Assembly: GCA_026398935.1 (NCBI GenBank)
Contig: JAPLRW010000263.1
Span: 1 to 45,618 of the forward strand
Direction: 5' to 3'
Origin: Methylococcales bacterium
GTDB taxonomy: Bacteria; Pseudomonadota; Gammaproteobacteria; Methylococcales; Methylomonadaceae
DNA length: 45,618 bases
Part shown: positions 12,540-22,553 of the stretch, piece after piece
Position numbering within the stretch: the stretch's first letter is position 1
How the letters are laid out: each line of letters begins with the position of its first letter
Program-made: the position numbers and the translations under genes
Notes under the pieces: model-generated
Database searches by the model: none
Told to the model about the DNA's origin: nothing
The model's input: the letters and a program-made list of their open reading frames with translations, nothing else

Positions 12540-12626
12540 TTAACTTTAGTGACGGCATAAAATGACAATAGTATGCAACGTTCTACAGTGCTTTATTTCA
12601 TTAACTATCACCCTTGGGGTTCTGCT

Positions 12627-13754
12627 ATGTTATTCAAACAATTATTTGATCAAGAAACTTGGACGTATACCTATTTAATCGCAGATCCGGTCACGAAAGA
12701 GGCGGTTTTTATTGATCCGGTCAATACCCATATTGACGCTTACATGGCACTGCTCAGCGAACACGGTTTACACCTAAAATATACCCTAGAAACGCATGTA
12801 CATGCGGATCATATTACCGCCAGTGGCTTATTGCGGCAGCGTTTGGGTGCCCAAACCGGCGTTAGTGAGTTGTGCGGAGCGACCACTGCCGATGTACAAA
12901 TTAAGGATGGCGATGTATTCGAATTTGGGCAAAATGAACGCATTAAAGTGATTGCAACCCCAGGACATACGCCAGGCAGTATTTCATTTTTATGGCGTGA
13001 TCGTGTTTTTACGGGTGATGCGTTATTGATTGGCGGATGTGGACGTACTGATTTTCAAGGTGGTGACGCAGGTGCTCAGTACGACGGTATTACGCAACGC
13101 TTATTTACCTTAGCTGATGAAACGTTAGTGTATCCCGGTCATGATTATCAACAACGATGGGTCAGTAGTATTGCTCAGGAACGTACTACTAATCCACGCT
13201 TGGCAGGAAAAACACGGGAAGAATTTATTGAGATTATGCATCATCTCAATTTACCTAAACCCCGTTTAATTGATGAGGCCGTACCCGCTAATCGTTATTG
13301 TGGCTTAGAAGAAAATGAGCGTCAGGATGCCATTGTGCAGCGTGAAGCTGTGCGTACTACAGCGACTCAAGAAACAGCAAGCTGTGGCGGTACACCCGCG
13401 CCAAGTATTACCACAGGTCAGGAAATGGTGATGGCCGCCAAACAACAGATTACAGAAGTCAGCGTAACAGCGGCTAAACAGTTGATCAGTGATGGCACGG
13501 TTATAGCGCTGGATGTGCGTGAAGAAAGCGAGTACGCCGCAGGGCACATTGATCAGGCAGTAGCACTACCGCGCGGCGTTTTGGAGTTTAAGATCGGTAA
13601 TTTTCCAGAACTGGCGGATAAATCTCAAGCAATATTGATTTATTGCCGTACCGGTGGACGCTCTGCTTTGGCGGCACAGACCTTACAGGCATTGGGATAC
13701 AGCAATGTTGTATCCATGGCGGGTGGCTTTGAAGCGTGGCAAAAAAGCGTTTAA
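12627..13754 (+). CDS. Persulfide dioxygenase (ETHE1-like) fused to rhodanese
   Basis: The N-terminal metallo-beta-lactamase domain (~1-230) is of the ETHE1/Blh type, which oxidises glutathione persulfide to sulfite with O2 at a mononuclear iron. It has THVHADH (56-62), PGHTPGS, GDALLIGGCGRTDFQGGDA and VYPGHDY. The C-terminal rhodanese domain (~285-375) keeps the catalytic loop CRTGGRS (Cys ~340), so it can move sulfane sulfur between thiols. The start at 12627 (MLFKQLFDQET) matches the family; the ATG at 12573 would add an unlikely 18-residue extension and lies close to the inferred transcription start. It is driven by the sigma-54 promoter upstream, and sqr follows 138 bp later on the same strand. 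Confidence 0.93.
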   Translation: MLFKQLFDQETWTYTYLIADPVTKEAVFIDPVNTHIDAYMALLSEHGLHLKYTLETHVHADHITASGLLRQRLGAQTGVSELCGATTADVQIKDGDVFEFGQNERIKVIATPGHTPGSISFLWRDRVFTGDALLIGGCGRTDFQGGDAGAQYDGITQRLFTLADETLVYPGHDYQQRWVSSIAQERTTNPRLAGKTREEFIEIMHHLNLPKPRLIDEAVPANRYCGLEENERQDAIVQREAVRTTATQETASCGGTPAPSITTGQEMVMAAKQQITEVSVTAAKQLISDGTVIALDVREESEYAAGHIDQAVALPRGVLEFKIGNFPELADKSQAILIYCRTGGRSALAAQTLQALGYSNVVSMAGGFEAWQKSV

Positions 13755-13811
13755 AAAAACGCCGATAACGTTAGGATGAAATTGTTTCGTTCTACTGTAT
13801 AAATAAAGGTG

Positions 13812-13852
13812 GCATGCTAGTACCAACACATTAATGGTGATGTCTAGCATGC
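13812..13852 (+). promoter_or_regulatory. Interrupted inverted repeat in the sqr leader
   Basis: gcatgctag (13812-13820) and ctagcatgc (13844-13852) are perfect 9-bp arms around 23 nt that contain a smaller acca/tggt stem. No T run follows. It lies 41 bp before the sqr ATG and may be an operator, an attenuator or an mRNA structure between the dioxygenase and sqr genes. Confidence 0.5.
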
Positions 13853-13892
13853 AACTAACAATAAAAATAATAATAGATAGCATGAGGATACT

Positions 13893-15146
13893 ATGTCACA
13901 ACAACACCATACTCTTTTAATTGTCGGCGGCGGTGCCGCGGGCGTTTCGGTCGCTAATAATATGCGCAGACAGAATGCGGCTATAGATATTGCGATTATC
14001 GAACCCTCTGAGCAGCATTATTATCAACCGGGATTTACCATTATTGGTGGCGGTGCTTATACCTTAAAGCAAACCACACGTAATGAAGCGGATTTAATTC
14101 ATCCAACGGTTAAATGGATTAAAGACTATGCTGAGTCTTTTCAGCCGGAAGATAATACCGTCACGTTACGTTCCGGTGAAACGGTACATTACGATTATTT
14201 AGTCGTCTGTCCCGGCTTGCAATTGGATTGGGACAAAATTCAAGGCTTACCTGAAACGCTAGGTAAAAATAATGTATGCAGCAATTATTCCGCGCAAACG
14301 ACGGAATATACCTGGGAGTGCATTCGTCATTTAGAATCCGGTACGGCGCTGTTTACACAACCCCCCATGCCGATTAAATGCGCAGGCGCACCGCAGAAGA
14401 TTATGTATCTCGCTGCGGATCGTTTTCGTAAAAAAGGCATTTTAGACAAAATGAATGTTGAGTTCTGTACGGCGGGGCCGGGGATATTCGGTATTCCGTT
14501 TTTTGCCAAAGCGTTAATGAAAGTAGTGGCAGGTTACGGGATTAAACCCAATTTTAGCCATAATCTGGTCGCGATTGATGGGGCGTCTAAAACGGCCACC
14601 TTTGAAGTAACCGATAGCGATGGTAATAAACAGCAAGTCGTAAAAGCGTTTGACATGATTCATGTGACGCCACCGCAAAGTGCGCCGGATTTCATTAAAA
14701 AAAGCCCTTTGGCGAATGCGGCTGGCTGGGTGGATGTGCATGATAAAACATTGCAGCACAATAAATACGCCAATATTTTCGGACTGGGGGATGCCACATC
14801 AACCCCCAATGCCAAAACTGCCGCTGCGGTTCGGAAGCAAGTACCGATTTTAGTCGATAATATTTTGCATCTTATTAACGGTAAAGCCGTTGAAGAAAAA
14901 TATGATGGCTACGGTTCTTGTCCGTTAACCACTTCGCTGAGTACGGTCATGTTGGCAGAGTTTGCGTACGGCGGTAAGGTAACCCCCTCATTTCCGTGGT
15001 TAGATCCTCGTAAAAACCTGTTTATCTGGTGGATAGGTAAAAAAATCGGTTTTCCTTGGATGTACTGGCATTTAATGCTGAAAGGGTATCGTATCGACAT
15101 TCCGCATTTGGCATCGTATGCCAATCGCTTTACAAAAGAAGAATAA
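13893..15146 (+). CDS. sqr: Sulfide:quinone oxidoreductase, type II
   Basis: SQR oxidises sulfide to a persulfide (or thiol persulfide) and passes electrons to quinone at the inner membrane. The FAD-binding start LIVGGGAAGVSVANNMRR is clear. The two redox cysteines match type II (human SQOR-like) enzymes: Cys ~163 in KCAGAPQK and Cys ~343 in GYGSCPLTTS. The second FAD segment is GLGDATSTPNAKTAAAVRKQ. The C-terminal part has aromatic, basic helices (NLFIWWIGKKIGFPWMYW) suited to membrane contact. Length (417) is normal. The ATG has GAGGA upstream. Together with the dioxygenase-rhodanese gene before it, this forms the two-step mitochondrial-type sulfide oxidation route. Confidence 0.95.
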   Translation: MSQQHHTLLIVGGGAAGVSVANNMRRQNAAIDIAIIEPSEQHYYQPGFTIIGGGAYTLKQTTRNEADLIHPTVKWIKDYAESFQPEDNTVTLRSGETVHYDYLVVCPGLQLDWDKIQGLPETLGKNNVCSNYSAQTTEYTWECIRHLESGTALFTQPPMPIKCAGAPQKIMYLAADRFRKKGILDKMNVEFCTAGPGIFGIPFFAKALMKVVAGYGIKPNFSHNLVAIDGASKTATFEVTDSDGNKQQVVKAFDMIHVTPPQSAPDFIKKSPLANAAGWVDVHDKTLQHNKYANIFGLGDATSTPNAKTAAAVRKQVPILVDNILHLINGKAVEEKYDGYGSCPLTTSLSTVMLAEFAYGGKVTPSFPWLDPRKNLFIWWIGKKIGFPWMYWHLMLKGYRIDIPHLASYANRFTKEE

Positions 15147-15173
15147 CTGAACCACATTCGTTAGCGCCTTCCC

Positions 15174-15202
15174 AGTAGAAACACACCGCGTGTGTTTCTA
15201 CT
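15174..15202 (+). other. Strong 13-bp hairpin between sqr and the SulP gene
   Basis: agtagaaacacac (15174-15186) pairs perfectly with gtgtgtttctact (15190-15202) around a 3-nt loop. There is no T run after it, so it is not a classic terminator. It may reduce read-through or protect the upstream mRNA. It overlaps the in-frame GTG at 15192, which argues against using that codon as the SulP start. Confidence 0.6.
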
Positions 15203-15251
15203 CAAGCAAGCCAGAATGAGTTCATTTAGATCAACACAGCCCTCACTAATA

Positions 15252-16982
15252 ATGACTAAATCTCACTCTACCCTGTCACGCCTGATACCTTATTTCCCCA
15301 TCATTGGCTGGCTAAAAACCTATACCCGTCAGGATTTTAATGATGACGTATTTGCAGGCATTATTACGGCTATTTTGCTGGTTCCGCAAGGGATAGCCTA
15401 TGCGATTCTGGCTGGATTACCGCCCGCGCTGGGGCTATACGCGAGTATCCTACCGCCGATTTTTTATGCATTATTAGGTACCAGTCGTACCTTATCGGTA
15501 GGGCCGGTGTCGATTGCCGCCATTATGATTGCCAGTGCCTTGCAAAGCCCTGAGGTTATCGCTTTGGGCAATCCGGTGCAAAGCACCTTGATTCTCTCGG
15601 CGACAAGTGGGGTAATTATGCTGTTAATGGCGTTGTTACGTATGGGCGGACTGGTCAACTTTATCAGTCATCCGGTCTTAACGGGTTTTACCAGCGGTGC
15701 ATCTATTTTGATTATCGCCAGCCAGTTACCGCAGTTAGCCGGATTAAAAAGTCCCGTATGTGGCTTCGATGCCGCGTGTTACAGCGGTTATATACACGGT
15801 TTTAATGCCACCACTTTAGGTATCGCAATCATTGCGCTGAGTGTATTGCTCTTATTCGGTAAACCACTCACCACCTTACTCAAAAAAATGGGTTTGTCAC
15901 TCTCCGTCGTGACCGCGATCAGCAAATGCGGGCCATTACTGACGGTTTTGCTGGGAACTGCGGCGGTCAGTTATTTCAACTTGCACGTACAGCAGCAGGT
16001 TGCCGTTGTTGGGCAGGTTCCTTCTGGCTTTCCGCACTTGAGTCTTGATTTTATAGGTAGCGAGCAATGGCGCGTGTTATTCCCCAGTGCGGCGTTTATC
16101 GCACTCATTGCCTACGTGGAAAGTGTCGCGATTGCGAAAGTAACCGCTAACTTACGCGGTGAAAAAATCATACCCAATCAAGAGCTGATTGCTCTGGGTG
16201 CTGCTAATTTAGCGACCGCACTTTCCGGCGGTATGCCCGTTGCCGGTGGCTTTAGCCGTACCATGGTTAATTTTGCTGCGGGTGCGAAAACACAAATGGC
16301 GATGATTATTGCCGCCGGATTGCTTAGCATAGCGGTGATATTTTTTACCCCCTGGTTTGAACATATTCCCAAAGCCGTATTAGCCGCTATTATTTTGGTC
16401 GCTATTACTCCCTTGGTGCGCTTAAAAAGCATCCTGCACACTTGGCATTATGATCGGGGTGACGGTATCGCCGAAGCAGTAACCTTGCTCGGTGTGTTGG
16501 TCTTGGGCATTGAAGAGGGTATTTCATTAGGGATTATCTTGACCATTGCCAGTCATTTACGCAAAGCCAGTCATCCGCATATCGCCGTGGTGGGGCGTAT
16601 ACCGAATACTGAGCATTTTCGTAACATCAAACGCCACAGTGTGGAAACGTGGCAGCACTTGTTGTTAATTCGTATTGATGAAAGTATCACCTTTACCAAT
16701 ATTGTATACATTGAAGAGTATCTTGCCGCCGAATTAAGACGGCAACCCGATACCAAACATGTGGTGCTTATTTTCACCTCGGTCAGCGATATTGATAGCA
16801 CCGCACTGGACGCGTTGGAGAACTTAAATCATGCCTTACAAGCCGCAGGAAAAACCTTAAATATCTCTGAAGCGAAAGGCCCAGTGATGGATAAGTTGGA
16901 AAAAACCGATTTCATTAAACAATTAAAACCCGGAAAAGTGTTTTTTCGTAATGTTGATGCAGTTAAAGAATTGGCAGGATGA
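15252..16982 (+). CDS. SulP-family anion transporter with STAS domain
   Basis: SulP proteins carry sulfate, bicarbonate or other anions across the inner membrane. The protein (576 residues from the ATG at 15252) has a ~14-span membrane domain with the conserved opening IITAILLVPQGIAYAILAGLPPALGLYAS and GTSRTLSVGP, and the later ALSGGMPVAGGFSRT element. A cytoplasmic STAS domain follows (~440-560) with the SDIDSTAL switch motif. The 20-residue longer version starting at 15192 is unlikely because that codon sits inside a hairpin. Its place between sqr and cydA suggests handling of sulfate or sulfite made by sulfide oxidation, or bicarbonate uptake; direction and substrate are not shown by sequence. 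Confidence 0.9.
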   Translation: MTKSHSTLSRLIPYFPIIGWLKTYTRQDFNDDVFAGIITAILLVPQGIAYAILAGLPPALGLYASILPPIFYALLGTSRTLSVGPVSIAAIMIASALQSPEVIALGNPVQSTLILSATSGVIMLLMALLRMGGLVNFISHPVLTGFTSGASILIIASQLPQLAGLKSPVCGFDAACYSGYIHGFNATTLGIAIIALSVLLLFGKPLTTLLKKMGLSLSVVTAISKCGPLLTVLLGTAAVSYFNLHVQQQVAVVGQVPSGFPHLSLDFIGSEQWRVLFPSAAFIALIAYVESVAIAKVTANLRGEKIIPNQELIALGAANLATALSGGMPVAGGFSRTMVNFAAGAKTQMAMIIAAGLLSIAVIFFTPWFEHIPKAVLAAIILVAITPLVRLKSILHTWHYDRGDGIAEAVTLLGVLVLGIEEGISLGIILTIASHLRKASHPHIAVVGRIPNTEHFRNIKRHSVETWQHLLLIRIDESITFTNIVYIEEYLAAELRRQPDTKHVVLIFTSVSDIDSTALDALENLNHALQAAGKTLNISEAKGPVMDKLEKTDFIKQLKPGKVFFRNVDAVKELAG

Positions 16983-18635: not shown

Positions 18636-19771
18636 TTTTTGATTACGAAACATTGCGTTTAATCTGGTGGCTTTTTTTAGGCGTTTTACTGATCGGCTTT
18701 GCGATTATGGGTGGCTTCGATTTGGGCGTAGCGATGTTGCTGCCTTTTTTGGGTAAAAACGATAGCGAACGGCGGGTGATCATTAATTCGATTCGGGCAA
18801 CATGGGAAGGTAATCACGTGTGGTTTGTCACCGCAGGGGGCGCGCTTTTTGCAGCATGGCCTCCCGCCTATGCGGTCGCGTTTTCAGGGTTTTATTTTGC
18901 GTTACTCTTAACCTTATTTGCCTTGTTTTTACGCCCCATAGGGTTTGACTACCGCAGTAAATTACCCAGTCAACGCTGGCGCAGTAACTGGGATAACGCC
19001 TTATTTGTCGGCGGTTTTGTACCGGCGTTAATTTTTGGCGTGGCTTTTGGGAATTTATTAGTTGGCGTGCCATTTCACTTTGATAATGATATGCGTATCT
19101 TTTATGAGGGCAGTTTTTGGGGATTATTAAACCCATTCGCCTTGTTGGCGGGTTTGGTGAGCTTAAGCATGTTACTGATGCACGGTGCAGTGTATTTACA
19201 GGTAAAAACGGACGACGTTATTTATCAGCGCTGTAAAACAATCGTGCCGATTTTTGCGGGAATAACGTTGCTGGCATTTGGCTTGGCGGGTATTTGGGTG
19301 GCTAATCTGAATGGCTACCACATTAGCTCGGTGATTCAACCTAACGCGGCGTCCAATCCTTTATTAAAACAGGTCACTCAAGCGCCCGGATTATGGTTGG
19401 ATAATTACCAGCAGCGCCCGCTTTTGTGGCTGATACCGGGATTGGCTTTTATCGCGGGTATCGTTACCTCGGTATTGTCAAAAAATGACCGTCCAGGACT
19501 GGCTTTCATCAGTAGTTCCTTGATGTTAAGCAGTATTATCCTGACGGCTGGGTGCGCCATGTTTCCGTTCCTTATTCCTTCCAGCAGTGCATTAAGTAGT
19601 TCATTAACGGTATGGGATGCGAGTGCGTCACATAAAACCTTGAGTATTATTTTCTGGGTAACGGTGATTTTTTTGCCGCTGATTATTATTTACACCAGTT
19701 GGGTGTTTCGGGTGTTACGCGGAAAAATAACCGTCGCACACATTAAAGCCAACGATCATACTGCTTATTAG
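18632..19771 (+). CDS. cydB: Cytochrome bd ubiquinol oxidase subunit II
   Basis: CydB is the second large membrane subunit of the bd oxidase. The N-terminus LIGFAIMGGFDLGVAMLLPFLG and the following ATWEGNHVWFVTAGGALFAAWP are highly characteristic, and about eight hydrophobic segments are seen over 379 residues, the normal length. The start overlaps the cydA stop, so translation is coupled. The next gene starts 9 bp after its stop, with AGGAG in the gap, and encodes the CydX-like small subunit fused to another domain. Confidence 0.97.
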   Translation: MIFDYETLRLIWWLFLGVLLIGFAIMGGFDLGVAMLLPFLGKNDSERRVIINSIRATWEGNHVWFVTAGGALFAAWPPAYAVAFSGFYFALLLTLFALFLRPIGFDYRSKLPSQRWRSNWDNALFVGGFVPALIFGVAFGNLLVGVPFHFDNDMRIFYEGSFWGLLNPFALLAGLVSLSMLLMHGAVYLQVKTDDVIYQRCKTIVPIFAGITLLAFGLAGIWVANLNGYHISSVIQPNAASNPLLKQVTQAPGLWLDNYQQRPLLWLIPGLAFIAGIVTSVLSKNDRPGLAFISSSLMLSSIILTAGCAMFPFLIPSSSALSSSLTVWDASASHKTLSIIFWVTVIFLPLIIIYTSWVFRVLRGKITVAHIKANDHTAY

Positions 19772-19780
19772 GAGCTTGCC

Positions 19781-20359
19781 ATGTGGTACTTTACTTGGAT
19801 ATTGGGATTATTGCTGGCGTGCTCATTGGGTATCATTAATGTATTGCGTATGGAAGCGCATGAAACTTGGATCAAAGAACATATACGTCTGGACGCCCTA
19901 ACGCAGTTATTGGCTAAAGAATCCATGTTGACCCGATTGAAAGAAAAGGTGGAAAACTCCCGGTTGAATGGTTTTCCTTTTTCGATTGTACTGATCAGTT
20001 TAAAAGACTTTGATAGCCGTAATCAGTTGCTTGATTATGAGCTGGATGCGGTGTTACGCAATGTTGCAGATCATATTAAAGCAGAAATTAGAGGGGGCAT
20101 TGATATTGCGGCACGAATGGATAAGCAAGAGTTTTTGATTGCGTTGCCGGGCTCTTCCTTACAAAAAGCTAATAGTATTGCAGCGCAGTTTAAGCAAGAT
20201 ATTCTTGAACAGATTAAAGCCCCCAGAGATTTAGTTGTGCAGGTTGCAGTCGGTGCAGCGGAATATGTCGCGCAACACGCCGAATTTGGCAGCAATCCGG
20301 TGGCTTTAGTACAGGATGTTGACGCATTGCTGCGTATTGCAACGCAAAACAAGCACTAA
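19781..20359 (+). CDS. CydX small subunit fused to degenerate GGDEF domain
   Basis: Residues 1-28 begin MWYFTWILGLLLACSLGII, almost the same as E. coli CydX (MWYFAWILG, LLACS), the single-helix subunit that stabilises cytochrome bd. Instead of ending at ~37 residues, the frame continues without break to 192. Residues ~37-190 follow the GGDEF fold: LDALTQLLAKESML (usual DxLTGLxNR), FSIVLISLKDF, DIAARMDKQEFLIALPGSS and a final VDALLRIA helix. The GGDEF site reads DKQEF (114-118) and both metal aspartates of DxD are Ser73 and Lys75, so diguanylate cyclase activity is very unlikely. The domain would face the cytoplasm if CydX has its known orientation. Position, spacing and ribosome site are exactly those of cydX. 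I know of no described protein of this type. Confidence 0.9.
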   Translation: MWYFTWILGLLLACSLGIINVLRMEAHETWIKEHIRLDALTQLLAKESMLTRLKEKVENSRLNGFPFSIVLISLKDFDSRNQLLDYELDAVLRNVADHIKAEIRGGIDIAARMDKQEFLIALPGSSLQKANSIAAQFKQDILEQIKAPRDLVVQVAVGAAEYVAQHAEFGSNPVALVQDVDALLRIATQNKH

Positions 20360-20387: not shown

Positions 20388-21032
20388 TTACTGAGGCACT
20401 CTATCGAGTATTGCCAGCGCCGCGATTAATGCCAGTGTTGCCGGTATCAAAAAATAGGGGCCGAAGAACCACAATATGATGGGTAAGCTAAAAAAGAACA
20501 TACGCGTACCCAAGGTATAGTAACGACCCGCTCTGTTTAAATAGGCGCAGGTTTGATGGAATAAGTTGCGTTCAGTACCCGTATTATTAGGCAGGTTAAT
20601 CATATAACCAACGTGATTGAAAAAACGGATGGACATGGCGAAACAGAAAAAAGCCATAAAAAAATCCAACAGTAATAAGCCCAGCTTTATTTGCCATAAC
20701 TGGCTGGTTACGCTGAGCGCTACACTGTGCGGATACCATTGCGCCGCCCACTCCCCGATTTTTGGACTTAAATTTAAACTACCGATGATTAATAATACTG
20801 CCGTTGACGCCATAAAGTTGGCTGCCATGACCGAGTTGCGCAAGGTTTGAATGGCAAGGATTTCCAATTTACCGTTATTCGTCATAATCAGGTCAACCCA
20901 TTGCCGTCTAATGCTAGCATTTAGCGTATGTACACTGGAATCGGGTGCGCGGCGAGTGCGGCGCGCTAAGTAAATATAGTAAGCCCATACCAATAAGCAA
21001 CTGCATAAAAACGCCATAATATCGTGTGACAT
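20388..21032 (-). CDS. DUF599 family membrane protein
   Basis: The ~214-residue product has four to five transmembrane segments: one at the N-terminus (FLCSCLLVWAYYIYL), two in the middle (NFMASTAVLLIIGSL and IKLGLLLLDFFMAFFCFAMSIRFF) and one or two at the end. The pattern RRQWVD, IQTLRNSVMAANFMASTA and FNHVGYMINL is typical of DUF599, a family without known function. The ATG at 21032 has AAGGAGT at ideal spacing, so the longer version from 21086 is wrong. It is on the opposite strand, convergent with the CydX-GGDEF gene (28-bp gap) and divergent from the chemoreceptor-rhodanese gene, so it interrupts the cyd set. Confidence 0.85.
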   Translation of the reverse strand: MSHDIMAFLCSCLLVWAYYIYLARRTRRAPDSSVHTLNASIRRQWVDLIMTNNGKLEILAIQTLRNSVMAANFMASTAVLLIIGSLNLSPKIGEWAAQWYPHSVALSVTSQLWQIKLGLLLLDFFMAFFCFAMSIRFFNHVGYMINLPNNTGTERNLFHQTCAYLNRAGRYYTLGTRMFFFSLPIILWFFGPYFLIPATLALIAALAILDRVPQ

Positions 21033-21182
21033 GTTATTTACTCCTTGATAAGGCTGCTTGACTCTAATATCAGACCCGCGCAGCACGCTGCCCTTCGCGG
21101 CTTATGAATGTATAAACAGTTATTACAACCCTATTCTTTTTTACACTATACTCAACTTATTAACACGACGGAATACCGAATA

Positions 21183-22553
21183 ATGTTTATTTACTTTCTT
21201 TTATGCATTTCATCCGCCTTAATAGCTGGCGTTACAGGTTGGTATTTTGGTCGTTCTGGTCAACCAGTTCCTCAAAAAGACGCTCAAGACGATCTCTTAT
21301 TGAAGTTTACGAGTGTATTAGAAAAAAATCAGCAGGAAATAAACGCATTTTCGCAGCAGCTCAGCCACGCCAATGAACAACTGCTGAGTGCTCAGTGTGG
21401 GCAATTACATGATGTTTTTTTAAATAATGGCCGCAGTGTCGACGCTTTGTTATTAAAACAGACGCAAGCATTGGATGCCGTGCATCAAGAAAAAAACACC
21501 CTTGCTGAAAAATTCACCTTAACCAATGAGCAATTGGTTGTAACGCAACGCGATCAATTGAATGAAGCTTTTTTAATCAATGGTCGCAGTACTGAATCTA
21601 TTACCAGTGAGCTTAAAGCCGCGCAAGAATCGGTAAATATGGCTTTTTCTGTTTTACCTGAACTGTATGATTCCAGTCGGAAAATGAGTGATACCACGCA
21701 ACAAAGCAAACAGCAGATTCAGGCGTTGTCGCAGTCGGTTAATTCTTGGCAGGGATCCATTGCTATATTGCAAAGTATTTTGACGCTGATTGATGGTATT
21801 CATCAAAAATCAATTCAAATCAGAGACGTTTCTTTTGAGGCTAATTTGCTGGCGCTTAATGCATCGATTGAAGCCGCGAAAGCGGGCGATCATGGGCGGG
21901 GCTTCGCGGTAGTCGCTGAAAGTATGCGCGCACTGTCTAAAAAAAGTGCTTCGGCGTCTATGGAAATCAATACTTCCGTAGCATTAACCCGCAAGGAAGT
22001 GTTCAGTATCGTCAAAGGCATTGAGAGCAGCGTTGGTTTATTATCGGATGTATCGGCGGCGGTGACGAAACAATTTTCATACATTGAAACAGAAGTGACC
22101 GCTATTGAAAATATTGCGCAACAATCCTCACTGAGCGCCGATATTGCTAAGGAAAAATTTGAACAAATAAATGCGAAAGTCAATGTACAGCTGGAAGACA
22201 TTAGTAAGCTATTAGCAGATGCGATGGGGGTTGTAACCGGAAATAAAATTAAAGATGTTTCTCCCTCGGCTGATTTTACCGGTATGAAAATTATTGATGT
22301 ACGTAGGAAAGACGAATTTAATGGTGATTTGGGGCATATTAACGGGGCGGAGCTGATCTGTTTACAGGAAAATTTTGAAGGACGTATTCAACGCTTAAAT
22401 AAAGACGTGCCGCATTTGTTTGTTTGTCGCAGCGGTGGGCGTTCTGCCAGAGCGGCGCGTATTGCTTTAGCGCACGGTTTTACAAAAGTGTATAACATGG
22501 AAGGCGGAATGTTGGCTTGGGATAAGATTTATGGCACTCAGGTACTTAATTAA
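21183..22553 (+). CDS. Membrane-anchored chemoreceptor signalling domain fused to rhodanese
   Basis: The ~456-residue protein has one N-terminal transmembrane helix (MFIYFLLCISSALIAGV, 1-20) and no periplasmic sensor domain. A coiled coil follows, with a 51-residue duplication (ANEQLLSAQ...NNGRS and TNEQLVVTQ...INGRS). The methyl-accepting signalling tip is intact at ~217-247 (ANLLALNASIEAAKAG, GRGFAVVAES). Residues ~365-456 form a rhodanese domain with active loop CRSGGRS (Cys ~415). Rhodaneses carry persulfide on this cysteine, so the protein may report sulfane sulfur to CheA/CheW. There is no CheR-binding tail. I prefer the ATG at 21183 to the upstream start at 21108, which adds 25 residues before the helix. 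Placed between cydABX and cydDC. Confidence 0.92.
   Translation: MFIYFLLCISSALIAGVTGWYFGRSGQPVPQKDAQDDLLLKFTSVLEKNQQEINAFSQQLSHANEQLLSAQCGQLHDVFLNNGRSVDALLLKQTQALDAVHQEKNTLAEKFTLTNEQLVVTQRDQLNEAFLINGRSTESITSELKAAQESVNMAFSVLPELYDSSRKMSDTTQQSKQQIQALSQSVNSWQGSIAILQSILTLIDGIHQKSIQIRDVSFEANLLALNASIEAAKAGDHGRGFAVVAESMRALSKKSASASMEINTSVALTRKEVFSIVKGIESSVGLLSDVSAAVTKQFSYIETEVTAIENIAQQSSLSADIAKEKFEQINAKVNVQLEDISKLLADAMGVVTGNKIKDVSPSADFTGMKIIDVRRKDEFNGDLGHINGAELICLQENFEGRIQRLNKDVPHLFVCRSGGRSARAARIALAHGFTKVYNMEGGMLAWDKIYGTQVLN

Follow-up and report, generated by a model that had tools for sequence, protein, structure and literature searches.

The window analysed here, a 45,618-nt stretch of DNA from a Methylococcales bacterium (contig JAPLRW010000263.1), carries a cytochrome bd operon whose third gene encodes a CydX part joined to a GGDEF domain (Table 1). 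The open reading frame and residue numbering given in the original prediction were right, and the claim that both parts lie in one protein was borne out, with each half scoring far above the curated cut-off of its family. PF08173 (CydX) matched residues 1-27 with 51.3 bits against a cut-off of 26.2 (E 1.2e-13), the NCBIfam CydX model TIGR02106 gave 47.7 bits (cut-off 31.6), and PF00990 (GGDEF) matched residues 37-190 with 59.5 bits (cut-off 23.8, E 4.5e-16). Among solved structures, E. coli CydX (6rko_X) and diguanylate cyclases, SiaD and PleD among them, are the closest in sequence. As expected for a third cyd gene with its own ribosome site, the ATG lies 9 nt behind the cydB stop codon, which ends at position 19771, and an AGGAG sequence is present 6 nt upstream of it. 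A real CydX-GGDEF fusion in the cydABX position is hence confirmed.

Table 1. Features of the fused cyd operon, in window positions
Feature	Position	Strand	Basis
cydA, cytochrome bd subunit I, 520 aa	17073..18635	+	PF01654, E 1.5e-165
cydB, cytochrome bd subunit II, 379 aa	18632..19771	+	PF02322, E 2.4e-98
Shine-Dalgarno-like AGGAG ahead of the fusion gene, sharing bases with the cydB stop codon	19770..19774	+	Read from sequence
CydX-GGDEF fusion gene	19781..20359	+	ORF of 192 aa, ATG start; kept in Methylococcales
CydX half and linker, residues 1-34	19781..19882	+	PF08173, residues 1-27; one predicted helix, 2-34; invariant E25
Non-catalytic GGDEF domain, residues 37-190	19889..20350	+	PF00990; predicted GGDEF fold, Foldseek
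Ser-Leu-Lys, codons 73-75, at the DxD position of active cyclases	19997..20005	+	Ser73 in place of the metal-binding Asp
R104-G-G-I-D108, I-site position, one residue longer than RxxD	20090..20104	+	R and D in 63/63 fusions; alignment to cyclases
DKQEF, residues 114-118, at the GG(D/E)EF signature position	20120..20134	+	Read from sequence

Upstream of cydA, positions 12573-16982 encode a metallo-beta-lactamase/rhodanese protein (persulfide-dioxygenase-like), a sulfide:quinone oxidoreductase (SQR)-like flavoprotein and a SulP transporter; this sulfide-oxidation set beside the bd oxidase adjoins only a few other fused operons. Directly behind the fusion gene, on the opposite strand, lies a gene for a DUF599 membrane protein (20388-21086), and a protein with an MCP signalling domain and a C-terminal rhodanese domain is encoded between the fusion gene and cydDC (21108-22553). 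Across 43 loci, no constant neighbour gene that could name a partner was found besides cydAB; cydDC is near the fusion in 10 and SQR in three. In nearly all homologous loci with a readable upstream cydB, the fusion starts 8-15 nt past cydB. The sole outlier (L035 and its duplicate L130) has a spacing of 65 nt; in that genome ~4 kb of other sequence separates cydA from cydB, and the adjacency of cydB and the fusion is kept. In another genome (G060; L160, 788-3459), a second cydA-cydB pair directly follows the fused operon, with no CydX seen behind it and a transposase-like ORF next.

Distribution and single origin of the fusion

When 84,980 species were scanned, each represented by one genome, ~40 full-length homologues were identified, nearly all in records named Methylococcales, Methylobacter, Methylomonas or Methylococcaceae. 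Isolates that carry the fusion include Methylobacter tundripaludum SV96 and OWC-G53F. One 3 kb contig with the fusion is labelled Epsilonproteobacteria (L017) and is probably a mis-binned Methylococcales sequence. Among 311 Methylococcales genomes, CydX scored over the cut-off in 190 and an essentially full-length fusion was present in 67 by count from the table, one of these being cut by a contig end; the fusion adjoins cydB in all Methylococcales cases with a readable cydB. The homologues are 187-209 aa long and, in an alignment of 21 sequences, 37-66% identical to the fusion in the window. In a partial sampling of the class (369 genomes, 62 with CydX), no fusion was found but the window's own, and an alignment search of these 369 genomes gave no other full-length match. 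Likewise, none besides the window's own was found among the 72 CydX genomes of 319 sampled across the phylum Pseudomonadota. Given the partial sampling, rare fusions outside Methylococcales are possible. Long frames (at least 100 aa, CydX hit over the cut-off) in other Gammaproteobacteria and Pseudomonadota were rejected as fusions, being ordinary CydX of 36-56 aa with open upstream sequence. The same holds for six genomes of the same family with a short CydX (L149-L154), whose frames of 151-189 aa owe their extra length to upstream sequence.

Selection on the two halves was estimated by the Nei-Gojobori method (own script) from 192 moderately diverged pairs, which share ancestry and are not independent. 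The median dN/dS was 0.18 (range 0.03-0.36) for the GGDEF part and 0.02 for residues 1-35. The GGDEF domain is clearly constrained by purifying selection. The chance that a sequencing or assembly error joined CydX to an unrelated GGDEF gene is therefore negligible, as the same fusion of similar length recurs in dozens of independent assemblies, isolates such as M. tundripaludum included, with low dN/dS over the GGDEF part. None of the homologues shows a stop after ~37 codons, and the reading as an artefact or frameshift is refuted. The fusion, originally described from a single sequence, is a conserved family across a lineage.

In a tree of CydA and CydB from 89 operons, all 44 fused operons fell in a single clade with support of 1.0. 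The sole other member of that clade (L044) is a frameshifted copy from genome G284. The sister operon of the clade (L045) has a CydX of 37 residues, and CydX of 32-51 residues accompanies the more distant CydAB of the Methylococcales operons sampled. When fusion-type CydB was defined as at least 58% identical to the CydB of the window, 68 genomes were included by our count, and 66 of them have an intact fusion. In one exception, G284, cydAB is intact and the fusion is broken after ~65 matching residues, either by an assembly error or by real loss of the domain. There, a 75-aa ORF with a complete CydX is followed downstream by two separate GGDEF pieces (L143, L044). The other exception, G256, has a decayed fusion remnant behind an open cydB (L161, 3400-4050), and no cydA was found. 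A further genome, G289, retains only an orphan GGDEF fragment of the fusion family (L164, 1133-1513), with no cydA detected. Decay of the fusion where the oxidase is lost (G256, G289) is what a function dependent on the oxidase would predict. Hence, the fusion is shown to have a single origin and to be coupled to CydAB. The signature of the G289 fragment, GGQDF, is the least degenerate seen.

Predicted structure and catalytic residues

The AlphaFold2 model of the fusion (pLDDT 83, pTM 0.71) consists of a helix at residues 2-34 and, after residue 37, a GGDEF fold, as predicted; its top Foldseek matches in the PDB are diguanylate cyclases. A divergent member of the family (L142) is modelled with this arrangement too, though less confidently (pLDDT 76). 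In the model of the window's fusion, the helix leads directly into the DxLT segment that opens the GGDEF fold, an arrangement also found in membrane cyclases, and D38 and T41 of this segment are invariant. The C-terminus of E. coli CydX lies in the cytoplasm in the cryo-EM structure (PMC6853902), though a 2014 survey, relying on earlier data, took the topology to be reversed (PMC4325964). By analogy with the E. coli structure, the GGDEF domain would be cytoplasmic. A GGDEF fold fits the cytoplasm and is thus consistent with a cytoplasmic CydX C-terminus, the point on which the two published accounts disagree. The suggestion that the module is physically on the oxidase would follow if the contact between CydX and CydA known from E. 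coli also holds for the CydX half of the fusion.

An added C-terminal domain is compatible with the role of CydX, as E. coli CydX carrying a C-terminal SPA tag still works, with oxidase activity purifying along with it (PMC6005532), and exchange of the residues after E25 has no visible effect (PMC4325964). In the CydX half of the fusions, Y3 and W6 are present in 63/63 sequences, G9 is found in 62, and E25 is invariant. By analogy with E. coli, we conclude that the CydX half would work normally. The variable CydX tail, which could be exchanged in E. coli under the conditions used, can thus carry a folded module.

Residue conservation was tallied over 63 distinct fusions. None has a GG(D/E)EF signature, and the position of the metal-binding Asp (residue 73) is occupied by Ser in 51 and by Asn in 12, while residue 75 is Asp in only three. 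The fusions therefore lack both hallmarks of a diguanylate cyclase, the signature and the metal-binding Asp, and the replacements first noted in the window (DKQEF at the signature, Ser73 and Lys75 at the DxD positions) were borne out. A degenerate signature alone is no proof of inactivity, since the AGDEF cyclase VCA0965 makes c-di-GMP (PMC3974145). As both the metal ligand and the signature are lost, the fusion domain is very unlikely to be an active cyclase, which agrees, as judged from the sequence, with the original view that it should not make c-di-GMP. Residues D38, T41, F67, R104, D108, G124 and L183 of the GGDEF part are invariant, and E55, K56, N59, P66, S68, E87, G106, R112 and others are nearly so. 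Loss of the catalytic residues with retention of R104, D108 and the helix-1 patch E55, K56 and N59 is as expected for a binding, non-catalytic domain. The conserved residues may also merely maintain the fold.

Possible roles of the GGDEF domain

The best explanation, to which we assign a probability of about one half, is that the domain is a docking or regulatory module on the bd oxidase. The gene product would be a two-part subunit of the Methylococcales cytochrome bd-I oxidase. Its N-terminal helix would do the ordinary job of CydX, which clamps CydA and is required for assembly, and the C-terminal 155 residues would form a non-catalytic GGDEF fold on the cytoplasmic face of CydA, attached via a short helical linker. 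This pseudo-enzyme would bind a partner in the cytoplasm, which is probably a different GGDEF/c-di-GMP protein or else a further copy of the pseudo-enzyme, and docking of the partner would tune how stable, clustered or active the oxidase is. The present analysis shows the fusion itself, its place in the operon, its conservation and single origin, its coupling to CydAB, the catalytic loss and the predicted fold, and the CydX binding site and cytoplasmic C-terminus are taken from published E. coli work; from these we infer that the module docks something and regulates. Against such a role, no neighbour other than cydAB is constant and, if the G284 assembly is right, its intact CydX with a broken GGDEF part suggests that the domain may be dispensable.

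Alternatively, the domain could be a c-di-GMP receptor, in which the dinucleotide would bind an altered I-site, made up of R104, D108 and one basic residue of the helix that follows, and would change the oxidase and so control respiration directly. R104 and D108 are invariant despite the lost active site, and the organism has a c-di-GMP system, with 18 GGDEF matches in the window's own genome, where genes for c-di-GMP synthesis are present. However, alignment to cyclases places R104 and D108 at the RxxD position with one extra residue between them (RxxxD). Among the 15 GGDEF-signature rows from a pattern scan of the same genome, in which one protein is listed twice, RxxD occurs in 14, neither motif in one, and RxxxD in none. 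The third I-site Arg is replaced by Gln in the window and varies among the 63 fusions (Gln in 24, Arg in 22, Lys in 10), and the fold is a further reason why GGDEF domains in general conserve the Asp108 position. Receptors of the PopA/SgmT type combine a degenerate A-site, which the fusions have, with an intact RxxD I-site, which they lack. Because of the RxxxD spacing and the variable third Arg, binding of c-di-GMP by the fusion domain is possible and not strongly indicated, and this alternative is rather unlikely. Of the second-messenger control originally suggested, the invariant R104 and D108 speak for the idea, and the altered I-site speaks against it.

It is less probable still that the domain is a purely structural extension that stabilises the bd complex or helps to assemble it and senses nothing. 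CydX is an assembly and stability subunit, the fusion keeps strictly to a single CydAB clade, and evolution is faster in the GGDEF part than in the CydX part, all of which would suit such a role, but a 155-residue signalling fold kept lineage-wide would be a costly stabiliser when a CydX of 37 residues suffices elsewhere. A reversed flow of information, from the redox or turnover state of the oxidase via the helix to pairing of the pseudo-GGDEF with an active cyclase, thereby switching c-di-GMP production, seems improbable. The direct passage of the helix into the DxLT start and the 15 or so canonical cyclases available as partners in the genome are consistent with it, but no cyclase gene is conserved near the fusion loci.

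A further reading is put forward tentatively, at less than even odds: the pseudo-GGDEF on CydX would bind either c-di-GMP or a protein from the c-di-GMP network, and this binding would determine how active or stable the oxidase of methane oxidisers is, or where it is located. Cytochrome bd is a high-affinity oxidase for respiration at low oxygen, the habitat of many methane oxidisers. A conserved signalling-type domain on an oxidase subunit makes it possible to test whether the c-di-GMP system controls a respiratory complex directly, which would tie respiration to lifestyle control without transcription. If the further reading is true, this enzyme would be, as far as we found, the first respiratory oxidase known to include a second-messenger receptor among its subunits.

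Comparison with known systems

Both halves come from known families, and to our knowledge their combination has gone undescribed, in line with the original statement that no such protein was known. Full-text searches, whose coverage leaves out most subscription journals and preprints, found no published description of CydX or YbgT with GGDEF, or of CydX with methanotrophs, and no direct binding of c-di-GMP to cytochrome bd is reported in the titles and abstracts searched. Residues 1-28 of the fusion can be aligned with CydX of E. coli cytochrome bd-I (chain X of 6rko), and the fusion shares with CydX/YbgT the place behind cydB and the residues Y3, W6, G9 and E25. However, the CydX tails known in the 2014 survey have at most 44 residues (PMC4325964), whereas the fusion has a folded domain of 155 residues. 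With the diguanylate cyclases PleD, SiaD (7e6g) and DosC it has in common the GGDEF fold, the DxLT entry and the general residue pattern. Unlike them, it has neither the GG(D/E)EF signature nor the metal-binding Asp, its I-site is altered, and a CydX anchor is present without a sensor domain. The degenerate GGDEF receptors PopA and SgmT resemble the fusion in their dead A-site and in the R and D of the I-site region, but they have an intact RxxD and demonstrated c-di-GMP binding (PMC3509222), whereas the fusion has RxxxD with a variable third Arg, and its target would be the oxidase. A GGDEF domain covalently joined to an integral membrane protein is also seen in the ammonium transporter with a C-terminal GGDEF (PDB 8qj3, 8qpf), which is among the PDB matches of the fusion family; that protein is a transporter, whereas the fusion is an oxidase subunit.
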